From a virus, in the IMG/VR virus record IMGVR_UViG_3300023223_000287, positions 1 to 35,427 of that record: 35,427 bases of DNA; one strand, written 5' to 3'. Below the pieces are notes generated by a model. The model saw nothing but the letters and a program-made list of their open reading frames with translations. It did not search any database and was not told the origin of the DNA. Shown here one piece after another: positions 366 to 33,700 of the stretch. A program made the position numbers and the translations under genes. Within the stretch, counting starts at the first letter, position 1; each line of letters opens with the position of its first letter.

Positions 366-3300
366 CTGAGTGCTTCCTTTTCGTTGTCGCTTTGGCTGCC
401 AAAGATAACGCCAAGTAACCAGTTTTCAGGGTTTGAAATCTTAGTCGATTTTGCCCAATTTATGAATGCCTTAGACTTCGAAACCTTTTTGACATTCTGT
501 CTATATTTTGCCGGGTTGGCGGCAACGTCTGAAACCAACAGTTTAAATTCTTCGCTATTAAATAGTTTGCCGGCTGCGGCAATTTTATCCTTGCCGCCCT
601 TAGTTAAGAATTCAGCCACCATTAAACCGCCCGCTACTCCCGGTGTGCCTAGAGCTGCGCCCCCTGCCACAGCAGCCCCTGACCTTACAGCCTTGCCGCC
701 TACAGAAGATTGCAAAATATTCTTTACAACATTTTCAGCCCGCATAGCCTCGACCAACGGTTGATTAGCTTTGCCGGTGGTTAAAACTTTACTTCTAGCG
801 TCCGTTATTCTCTTTGAAACAGAAAATAAATCTCGCAAGGTGTCGCTTGCTTCTTTGCCAATTATCTTATGTATCTTACTGAATAATGGCGGGTTTTGTC
901 TTAGACCGCTGTAAAATTTAACAAACTGTGAAAATCCGAAAACTTTTTCGCCGCCAATAGTGCCCGTTGCAGATTTATTAATAGCTGATAACAACGCTTC
1001 TTTTTGCAAATCTTGTGGGATAACATTTAGCACTTTGTTTAGACCGCTAATGTCGCCCTGCGCGGCATCATTAATGCTTTTAGAAAGCAATCGAACAATG
1101 CTTCCTTGTTCGTCTTTGCCAAATCCTGCAATTATGCTTTTTTGAATTTCTTTTTTACGTGAAGTTAGTTCATGCGCTGCGACTAGTTTATCGCTAACAC
1201 CTTTGCCGCCAAATAATTCAACGTGTTCTAACCTATCTCTTCTTAGGTTTGAGACCAATTCGCCCAAATCAAAACTATCTGAATCAGCAAAAAGGTTTTG
1301 CTTGCCACCTTGCGCGGCGTTTATCTTTTTAATCTTACTATCTATCAAACCATAATTAGGCCTATTTTTACCGTTTGTAATGTCTAAAAATAATTCTCTT
1401 TCGGCTGCGTCCAGCTTGCCAATGCCGCCTAAATCTTCGGCTTTGTTTGCAAGATAATCACGGGTGTTGATCGGGTCGATCTTAGTTCTAGCCCCGACGC
1501 TTTCCTTTACCGATTCATATAATTTACGCTCACCACGTTTAATAGTCGTCAAAGAATTATCAAGCGATTTTTTAACATCGGCTGATATTTCAGAAATTGA
1601 TTTATTATCGGCTAATTTTAGAGCGACTTCATCGGCCTTGTTGACCGCTTTTTTAACAGTTTCTTCCCATATGGCGCTTGCCTCGCTGCCAATCTTAGAA
1701 CGTGTTAGTCCGGCGGCTTGCCTTACAATGGTTTCATCTGAGAAAACGTCTATAGGTAATTCGATTCCTAAACGTTCCGCCGCTTCTTTTGCCTCGATGT
1801 TAGTTTTTGCTTTTTCGGCCAATTGAACCCCTGCCTTGCGGCTGCCAGCCGAGGCTTTGCTTACCAAAGTTCCTATATCGTCTTCAATTCTTACTATTTT
1901 TTCAGCCGTTGGCGTTGCTTTTGGCCTTGCGCCAACTTTAGACCCGCCAAAAATCGCGCCAGTAATGCCAGCCACGGTCTGAGCAACTTCGCCACCGCCA
2001 GCAGCTTTAACACCTTCAGCAGCTAATTCGCCTGTTGCCGCACCTGTAACTTGTGCAATCGGTTGGGCAGTAAAGGCCGATGTAACCAAACGGGTTAAAC
2101 CGTCGACGGCTGGTTTTACTGCGCCCGCGATTCCTATGGTTGTTGCCGCGCCAGTCACCGCTTCGGAAACTCTGCTTATAATCTCTTCAGTCATGGTTGC
2201 CGGTTGGGCAAAACCTTCTTTTGTCAAAACTTCGTTAATACGTTGTCCAAGCATAGGGATTTGATCTTCATTACTTAAAGCCTGGTTCATCAAAACCGCA
2301 ATCGGATTATAAACAATGCCTAATGCACTCTCTAATCCGGTCAAAACGTCTCTTGTCGCCAATTCCGCGCCACGTTTTATACCTTCTTCAGAAACTAATG
2401 GCCGTTCTCCCTGTTGGGCAAGTGCAATTGTTGGCCGTTCCCCTTGCTGTTCAGTGAAGAAAACCTCGCCCTTTTGCACGGCCTGTTCTAACTGCGCCCT
2501 GTGTTCCGGAGTCATAGCACCGCTATTGTAAGCATTCATTACGCCTTCAGGAATCGCTATTCCTTGGTCAACCTGGCGGACAACTTCTTGACGTGGTATT
2601 TCGCCGGATTGAATGCCTTGTTCATATAATGCCCTATGTTCTGGAGTCATTTGTTTGTTATTATAGGCATCGTGCAAGTTTTGAACTTGGATTTCGCGTT
2701 TCTGTTTTGGAGTTCCCGCGGGCTTCGGGGCTGAAACACTGGCGACTTGCCTATCAGGCGTTATCGCTACCGGAGCGGCCAATTGTTGCGCCGGCGCTGT
2801 TTGTATATTATCCGCTGGTCTGCCTAAATTGGCGATAGGGGCAGCAACGTTCGCCGCGAATTGTTCGCCGACCAAGCTTTCGGGAGTACGAGGCCGTTCT
2901 AGTTGACGGTTAAAAAATTCCTCACCTCTAACGGGGCTTGGTTGTGGGCTTAAACCCGCGCTCACGTCTGCAATAACAGCGGGCGCAGTGGGTAATTCTG
3001 GTGTTTGGGCTGCAATTTGGGTCGGTGTCGGGGCTGGGGTTGGTATTTGGGCAATTACGGGCGCTGTTGCTCGTTCCGTGCCGCCACCGACCGAAAGATC
3101 AAATGCATCTGCAACGGAAAGCTGTGCTTCGGGGGCTAATCCGCCCTCTATGCGAGTTGCCGCTGTGTCTGCGCTTATGTCTGCAGTCTCCCTTGCCGCC
3201 GTAGCCGCTGCCTCGCGCTCACGTCTTGCGCTCACATCTAATATGTCTCTGGTGGCTGTGGGGCTTAATATAGTTCCATCTTGGCCGCCAAAAAAAGCGT

Positions 3301-17535: not shown

Positions 17536-17820
17536 TTAATTTAACCATTTCTTTTTAAGTTTACCTTTTCGGCGAACATTCACATATGATCCGCCAGCCA
17601 ATACCGTTATCGGATATTTTTTCTTTGCCACAACGTAAAAAATCCCGTTTGGCACTCTGAACCTGTAAACAAATGTATCATTGGCGGTCTGCACTACTTT
17701 TTCGACGAAATCTTCTAAACCATAACGAATTGCTTCCGTTATTTCTTTTGCTAGTAAATTAGGGTCGTGAAATACATTTCTTTCAAGGCATCTTTCATAA
17801 AAGTGACTTTTCCCCTTCAT
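17536..17820 (-). CDS. Hypothetical protein with DUF4258/RelE-like small-fold pattern
   Basis: 94 aa from ATG 17820, which has a strong GAGGGGAG ribosome site; an upstream TTG (17862) is in frame but lacks one. The sequence KGKSHFYERCLERNV, then AIRYGLEDFVEKV, then TFVYRFRVPNGIFYVVAKKKYPITVLAGG resembles small alpha/beta proteins of the DUF4258 kind (His near the start, late beta strands). RNA cleavage is known for some relatives of that fold, but the match is weak and no active site can be stated. It lies directly after the tRNA-like gene on the same strand. Confidence 0.5.
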   Translation of the reverse strand: MKGKSHFYERCLERNVFHDPNLLAKEITEAIRYGLEDFVEKVVQTANDTFVYRFRVPNGIFYVVAKKKYPITVLAGGSYVNVRRKGKLKKKWLN

Positions 17821-17895
17821 AAGCTCCCCTCGAATTTTTGATATTACTTGTTTGATTAGCAAGCGGGGTTAGCTTATCAGAACCTTCCCCGCTCT

Positions 17896-18000
17896 ACTCG
17901 ATGATGGGACTTGAACCCACGGCCAATACGATTGATGCCTTCCGACCTGATAAAATCTTCTGGCTATTTCCTACTGCTCTACCCGCTGAGCTACACCGAA
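17896..18000 (-). tRNA. Aberrant tRNA-like gene (no canonical anticodon arm)
   Basis: Read on the minus strand: acceptor arms TTCGGTG and CATCGAG pair over 7 bp (two G-U), then TA, a perfect D stem GCTC/GAGC around AGCGGGTA, then 54 nt instead of about 22, then T stem GTGGG/CCCAT with loop TTCAAGT. No CCA is encoded. I could not find a 5-bp anticodon stem with T33 at the expected place. Within the 54 nt there are two weak hairpins: CCAGA/TCAGG (4 of 5 pairs), and GGC plus CAAT around CGT with ATTG plus GCC. It could be an intron-bearing, decayed or mimic tRNA. No amino acid is assigned. Confidence 0.6.
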
Positions 18001-18007
18001 TTTGATT

Positions 18008-18045
18008 TAAACCCGATTTTACGCTAAATTTGCGATTGGGGTTTA
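18008..18045 (-). repeat. Leader hairpin between promoter and tRNA-like gene
   Basis: TAAACCC (18008-18014) pairs with GGGTTTA (18039-18045), with an inner CGC/GCG pair set around TAAATTT. It sits between the candidate promoter and the tRNA-like 5' end and is likely part of the precursor transcript. Confidence 0.45.
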
Positions 18046-18049
18046 TTTA

Positions 18050-18077
18050 ATTATACACTTTTATGTTGATCTTTCAA
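18050..18077 (-). promoter_or_regulatory. Candidate promoter for the tRNA-like gene
   Basis: Minus strand -35 TTGAAA (18072-18077), 16-nt spacer and a perfect -10 TATAAT (18050-18055). It lies in the last codons of the 47-aa gene and would start RNA near 18043, about 40 nt before the tRNA-like sequence. Confidence 0.5.
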
Positions 18078-18194
18078 GCTAACTTGCGGAACTCTGTATT
18101 TATTTCTTAGAAGTTCGCTGACGGCTTCATATTGTGCTTTGGCCGCGAAGTAAGCAGATAGTGACGAAATAGGGCTAAATATTTGATAAAGCAT
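18051..18194 (-). CDS. Small hypothetical protein (47 aa)
   Basis: ATG 18194 to TAA 18051, 47 aa, with AGAGGG ribosome site inside the last codons of the 164-aa gene and a 4-nt gap to it. Sequence is mildly amphipathic (PISSLSAYFAAKAQYEAVSE) with a basic tail. No family recognised. The promoter of the tRNA-like gene lies in its 3' end. Confidence 0.55.
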   Translation of the reverse strand: MLYQIFSPISSLSAYFAAKAQYEAVSELLRNKYRVPQVSLKDQHKSV

Positions 18195-33130: not shown

Positions 33131-33700
33131 ATGAACGTTCAAGAATATATAAATAAAGTCGCGCACCAGGTAGAATGGTGTCCAGACCCATCGGTCGAGC
33201 CAACGAAGGCATGGGCATCTAATTTTGACGGGAGTTTTATAATACCTGTCGGTATGGAGGATGAGTTAAAATACTATGCCGAGCGCGAAATCACAGACGA
33301 ATTAACCCACGGCGTTGGATTTAGCCCAAAAGATAACAAATGGTATGGTTGGACGCATCGCGGAATGTATGGTTTTGAAATGGGGTCGAGATGTAAAAAG
33401 GGTGATTGCCATTACAGCGCATCCAACAAAGAGGACTTTATGCGCGACAGGCTAAAGTTTTGGGGTGACGACGATTTCAAGGCAGATAACGCAGTAGTTA
33501 TAGATACCACAAGAGATGGTATTAAGGGGTGTTTAGTTACTGGCAACTATAATTTTTACCCAAAGAACGAAAGCCTTAGATACAAAAAATACGAACACTT
33601 TACGCCATATCCTGAAACTTTTGGCCGTGGAGAATGGGTTGCCGAAACAATGGAAGACGCTAAACAAATGGCGATTGATTTTAGAAATGGCGTTTCGTGA
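33131..33700 (+). CDS. Conserved phage protein of unknown role (189 aa)
   Basis: 189 aa. GVGFSPKDNKWYGWTHRGMY, then GFEMGSRCKKGDCHYS, LKFWGDD, YPETFGRGEWVAETMEDAKQ and MAIDFRNGVS recur in a family of phage proteins, especially marine ones, without known function. No signal or membrane segment. 30 nt after the GapR gene, no ribosome site of the strong type (GGGTAA). Confidence 0.7.
   Translation: MNVQEYINKVAHQVEWCPDPSVEPTKAWASNFDGSFIIPVGMEDELKYYAEREITDELTHGVGFSPKDNKWYGWTHRGMYGFEMGSRCKKGDCHYSASNKEDFMRDRLKFWGDDDFKADNAVVIDTTRDGIKGCLVTGNYNFYPKNESLRYKKYEHFTPYPETFGRGEWVAETMEDAKQMAIDFRNGVS

Follow-up and report, generated by a model that had tools for sequence, protein, structure and literature searches.

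The window analysed here (the whole 35,427-base record of a P22-like podovirus) carries a 105-nt element in which, on covariance-model and base-pairing evidence, the acceptor, D and T arms and the elbow core of a tRNA are intact and a longer arm stands in place of the decoding arm. We consider it somewhat probable that this element encodes a small RNA that does not decode and that has a tRNA as its scaffold. More interesting than the single element is the class that it fits: judged by pattern searches, the long-arm architecture is strongly enriched in phages and is almost never found in bacterial chromosomes, for which the systematic sample was Bacillota.

A tRNA shell with an expanded anticodon region

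Only one RNA family matches the window, the tRNA family RF00005 of Rfam. The covariance match covers positions 17896-18000 of the minus strand; its 38.7 bits clear the gathering score of 29, and its E value is 7e-5 over the whole window and 8e-7 over the local stretch. A sequence-only reading of the same DNA had placed a tRNA-like gene there, with correct coordinates and strand. All standard pairs are present (acceptor 7/7, D stem 4/4, T stem 5/5), and the elbow and core bases, read off the sequence, are all kept: U8, A14, G15, G18, G19, A21, C48, U54, U55, C56, A58 and C61. ARAGORN calls no tRNA in the element or the window. The nearest shells among 460 phage tRNAs are scattered, so we discarded a single-isotype origin and claim no isotype. 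The genes for the coat, portal and tail stabilisation proteins and both terminase genes all lie on the minus strand of the window.

Table 1. Features of the tRNA-like locus, in 5' to 3' order of the minus strand, with window coordinates
Feature	Position	Strand	Basis
Sigma-70-type promoter match, TTGAAA-16-TATAAT	18050..18077	-	11/12, consensus match only
5' leader hairpin AACCC...GGGTT with inner CGC/GCG, predicted	18010..18043	-	fold, -6.8 kcal/mol
tRNA-like element, 105 nt, without encoded CCA	17896..18000	-	RF00005, 38.7 bits
Acceptor 5' strand UUCGGUG	17994..18000	-	
D arm GCUC-AGCGGGUA-GAGC	17976..17991	-	
Expanded 26-48 region: A26, long arm replacing the anticodon arm, class I variable region UGGCC	17921..17975	-	
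Outer helix 5' side GUAGGA, predicted, pairs with 17926-17931, one G.G mismatch	17969..17974	-	pair probabilities 0.46-0.47
Inner rod, predicted: GCC/GGC (17964-17962 with 17939-17937) around GAUUU/AGGUC (17957-17953 with 17948-17944)	17937..17964	-	
Outer helix 3' side UCGUAU, predicted	17926..17931	-	fold with pair probabilities
T arm GUGGG-UUCAAGU-CCCAU	17904..17920	-	
Acceptor 3' strand CAUCGAG	17897..17903	-	
3' flanking hairpin AGCGGGG...CCCCGCU, directly 3' of the acceptor, no U run	17861..17894	-	-17.2 kcal/mol
Next gene downstream, 94 aa, ATG after GAGGGGAG, leads towards the terminase genes	17536..17820	-	

Positions 26-48 of the element span 55 nt, against 23 in an ordinary tRNA; the sequence-only reading had noticed this long gap between the D and T arms and counted 54 against 22. 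Because the final five of these nucleotides, UGGCC, form a normal class I variable region, the extra ~32 nt sit in the anticodon arm. The covariance alignment leaves 43 nt between two short anticodon-stem remnants: the model keeps the long insertion and gives no standard tRNA. Where an ordinary tRNA has a 5-bp anticodon stem and a 7-nt loop with U33, the element has four of the five outer pairs (27-31:39-43, p=0.066 by shuffling) and lacks U33, and a 7-nt loop with both U33 and R37 arises in none of 24 register or splice choices. Together with the ARAGORN result, this upholds the earlier statement that a canonical anticodon stem-loop is missing.

With the shell fixed, the favoured fold of the expanded region is an extended anticodon arm, GUA.GGA/UC.UAU followed by GCC/GGC and then GAUUU/AGGUC, whose pair probabilities are mostly 0.46-0.58; a competing fold, GCCAG/UUGGC, has a probability of ~0.3. 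The element as a whole folds modestly better than its shuffles (z -1.38). Given the competing folds, the 4/5 outer helix and this z value, the window alone does not prove a functional arm. Homologues of the arm's sequence, its payload, were absent from every collection searched, and its similarity to the payloads of other long-arm elements is at the level of shuffles. An origin by duplication or antisense copying was rejected, as no exact match to it elsewhere in the window exceeds 10 nt, a length that shuffles reach too.

The promoter match sits 50-77 nt upstream of the element and is the sole 11/12 site with 16-18 nt spacing on the minus strand of the window, while shuffled windows hold ~2 sites of the 11/12 type each, both strands counted; that a match at this place and on this strand arose by chance seems unlikely. 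Both upstream features of the sequence-only reading are borne out, the TATAAT promoter as a real sequence match and the leader hairpin as a predicted fold. The 3' hairpin had been missed. The stop codon of a 47-aa ORF at 18051-18194 (-) overlaps the -10 TATAAT of the promoter match. Between the element and the next gene there is no terminator match, so a longer transcript, running towards the terminase genes, may begin with the element. The 94-aa product of that gene has no family match, and the flanking small proteins give no significant family match. Elsewhere in the window, at 33131-33700 (+), Pfam assigns a 189-aa protein to Tad6 (E 8.9e-36), an inhibitor of type I Thoeris, which makes this an anti-defence gene.

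Long-arm tRNA-like elements in phages and bacterial chromosomes

We used a long-gap pattern consisting of the window's D arm, 36-66 free bases (equivalent to 33-63 nt at positions 26-48) and the T arm. It matches at least 120 stretches of IMG/VR, and a stem check (acceptor at least 6/7, T stem at least 4/5) leaves at least 86 distinct elements in 78 clusters. Among the matches listed, a few of the shortest owe their length to the variable arm, their anticodon arm being ordinary (L176, L205, tRNA-Gly), and some with poor acceptors are adjoining tRNA pairs; the long elements are unaffected by such caveats. In contrast, the pattern has no match in 397 Bacillota genomes, with the seed (centre) genome, whose own long-gap match spans an NN assembly gap, set aside. 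A normal-spacing pattern finds 57 matches in 26 genomes of the same Bacillota set, ~2 per genome, and it is the absence of long gaps alongside these ordinary-gap tRNAs, set against the IMG/VR count, that points to phage enrichment. A narrower long-gap pattern run on all species representatives gave two matches, one of them the NN-gap locus of the seed genome.

Among the matches listed, all five pairs 27-31:39-43 are kept in 25/78 clusters, compared with 0.9% in shuffles, and C48 is kept in 75/78; the retention of this 5-bp stem and of C48 shows that the shell is of class I and that the insert lies within its anticodon arm. In the same list the payloads include long hairpins (L161, L107, L144), stems with two hairpins (L149) and open loops (L113), many elements are the sole tRNA match in records of 28-57 kb, and most are intergenic. 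The window's element, with its intact shell, its 55 nt at 26-48 and a UGGCC variable region ending in C48, fits this class. ARAGORN leaves many of the long-arm relatives uncalled and gives others doubtful anticodons, and tRNA is the sole Rfam family that matches the long-arm elements tested. Three long-arm elements of other families had no match when compared with annotated phage records, and a literature search of limited coverage for subscription papers and preprints found no description of such elements.

There are two further arrangements. A 127-kb phage record, L137, with 27 tRNA matches in all, carries three tandem long-arm tRNA-likes of 111-115 nt and 46-53 bits at 276-386, 474-588 and 675-789 (+). 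At L196:3257-3340 (+), a long-gap tRNA-like with 35 nt at 26-48 precedes a gene for a Mu-type transposase by 247 nt.

The class as a whole bears on whether these genes decode. An intron-containing decoding tRNA, one of three suggestions in the sequence-only reading, would agree with an insertion that lies within the anticodon arm. However, among the matches listed, U33 occurs in only 9 of the 26 long-arm relatives that have a perfect anticodon stem, near the shuffled rate, which argues that long-arm tRNA-likes are not intron-bearing decoding tRNAs. In the window itself no splice restores U33 with R37 (0/24 choices), and Rfam returns no group I or other intron family. We regard an intron as exceedingly improbable here. 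The same near-chance frequency of U33 across the class is what suggests a non-decoding role.

Conserved arms and elements beside P22-like terminase genes

One set of long-arm elements shares its arm. Payload family A comprises 37 IMG/VR stretches, including L175:4963-5060 (-), L117 and L153, whose arm carries a conserved UCA-x-GGY-NAAGG-RCC motif with a GGY-NAAGG-RCC hairpin. In its inner helix 96% of cells are paired, and there are 28 double-change cells against 7.3 in shuffles; this strong covariation is evidence of selection on arm structure, in phages other than that of the window. The hosts of family A are mostly tRNA-rich large phages, with solitary occurrences as well. Like the window's element, family A combines a tRNA shell with an expanded anticodon arm, and its member L175 lies in a P22-like phage upstream of TerL; unlike the window's element, it has the motif in that arm. 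Covariance model R1 of family A finds nothing significant in the element, so we rejected membership and, on the same result, dropped a by-eye likeness of the window's arm (UCA..GAAGG..AAU). With neither a homologue nor a family A match, selection on the window's own arm cannot be inferred. A 19-bit model match in L029 is not enclosed by a tRNA shell, and we put it down to chance. Another payload type also recurs; it is 60-63 nt long, combines a hairpin with an ACAGCAA-like stretch and is present in L119, L123, L124, L135, L137, L184, L193 and L096.

Nearer to the window, the tRNA model was run on 50 P22-like or near records and gave one match, a weak one of 24.3 bits in L013, the P22-like phage whose TerL is the closest found to that of the window (51%). 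This aberrant element, at L013:6259-6353 (+), lies between TerL and portal; it resembles a serine-type tRNA whose anticodon arm is shortened and which has a long helix like that of an acceptor, UUGCUGCGG/CCGCAGCAA. The L175 contig, which has a P22-like portal (43%), carries its family A element 468 nt upstream of TerL. The P22-like Pseudomonas phage PfAn1 (PV364321) likewise has a tRNA gene upstream of terminase, but there it is a normal 76-nt tRNA-Met with a CAU anticodon. A tRNA-type gene beside the terminase recurs in the window's phage group, and two of the other three (L013 and L175) are not normal. Relatives sought through the neighbouring small proteins, the portal alone or element-specific DNA patterns numbered none or one. 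The sequence-only reading had held that relatives without the arms would speak against it; such relatives did not appear, and some P22-like relatives carry tRNA-type elements.

A position next to the terminase would also suit a processing mark or leader of the late operon, in which the shell, near the 5' end of the transcript, would direct RNase P and RNase Z to make a defined end ahead of the terminase genes and the arm would matter little. The promoter, the shell, the 3' hairpin and the terminase-ward genes do follow in order on one strand with no terminator match between, and L175 and PfAn1 carry a tRNA-type element at a similar place. Solitary elements in other phages, however, sit in varied contexts, and punctuation does not need a conserved, covarying arm such as that of family A. 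We think a processing mark quite improbable.

Scaffold, decay or decoy

Several known RNAs resemble the element in part. It shares with canonical tRNA (RF00005) the acceptor, D and T arms, the elbow core bases, a class I variable region and a score above the gathering threshold, and departs from it in the length of 26-48, the missing 7-nt anticodon loop and the lack of an ARAGORN call. Like tmRNA it joins a tRNA-like end to other RNA; unlike tmRNA it has an intact D arm, no tag frame and no large insert, and with no tmRNA from ARAGORN and no Rfam tmRNA match this identity was rejected. So was tRNA-Sec, with its long variable arm and UCA anticodon: RF00005 is the sole report at E up to 1, and the variable region is 5 nt. 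In engineered tRNA scaffolds the acceptor, T and D arms are kept and the anticodon stem-loop becomes an insertion region that keeps a hairpin (PMC3753655). The element has the same layout, a likeness of design and not of descent, and differs in being a natural phage gene with a short, unique insert.

Read as a gene for a small non-decoding RNA on such a scaffold, the element would be expressed from the promoter in front of it, have both ends cut back by RNase P and the tRNA 3'-processing enzymes of the host, and receive its CCA there as well. The tRNA shell would protect and present the folded arm, and the arm would do the work, either binding a host or phage factor or sponging RNA. Of the three suggestions in the sequence-only reading, a tRNA mimic that binds a putative factor fits best; its observation is confirmed and its interpretation is partly supported. 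Against the scaffold, the window's arm is without a homologue and does not match family A, its outer helix is mismatched, two folds compete, the whole element folds only 1.4 sd better than shuffles, and 49/50 P22-like or near records have no tRNA match.

The main rival for the window's copy is decay, in which a chance insertion of ~32 nt lengthened the anticodon arm of an ordinary phage tRNA, now on its way to being lost; it holds that place because the window's own arm has no homologue. An ordinary tRNA-Met does stand upstream of terminase in the relative PfAn1, the window's payload is unique, its outer helix is imperfect and CCA is not encoded. Yet every pair survives in the acceptor (7), D (4) and T (5) stems, as do the core bases, a strong promoter match lies upstream, and the architecture recurs in many phages and is absent from the 397 bacterial genomes, which hold many more ordinary tRNAs. 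We judge decay rather unlikely. The earlier claim that the gene is no dead relic has gained from the shared phage architecture, which makes a relic less likely than it would be for a lone case, although the window's copy may still be a decayed one.

The anticodon loop is missing here, which weakens the earlier suggestion of a decoy for anticodon nucleases and leaves decoys of enzymes that act on the elbow or acceptor. Such an RNA might inhibit host defences aimed at tRNA, or tRNA enzymes, if these recognise the acceptor or elbow and not the anticodon; the elbow and acceptor are intact, the anticodon is absent, and the same phage carries the Tad6-type anti-Thoeris protein. Phages are known to use tRNAs to counter tRNA-cleaving defences (PMC12409363 and papers cited there). 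An elbow decoy would nevertheless have no need of a long arm, the best known defences cleave the anticodon loop, and we find a decoy function very doubtful.

Because many unrelated phages have genes built alike, the sturdy fold of a tRNA may serve phages as a vehicle for small RNAs of other kinds. Tentatively, and short of calling it probable, we suggest that natural RNAs on tRNA scaffolds form a large class in phages that has so far gone undescribed. In it a standard shell would be processed and protected by the host tRNA machinery and would display interchangeable structured arms directed at factors of the host or its defences; the window's element would be a member with its own arm. Genes of this kind get annotated as odd or undetermined tRNAs, or are missed. 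Should they be functional RNAs on a scaffold, the tally of phage tRNAs includes genes of another nature, and arms that covary would offer direct handles for finding binding partners. Phages would then have reached the same design by which RNAs are stabilised in bacteria in the laboratory.
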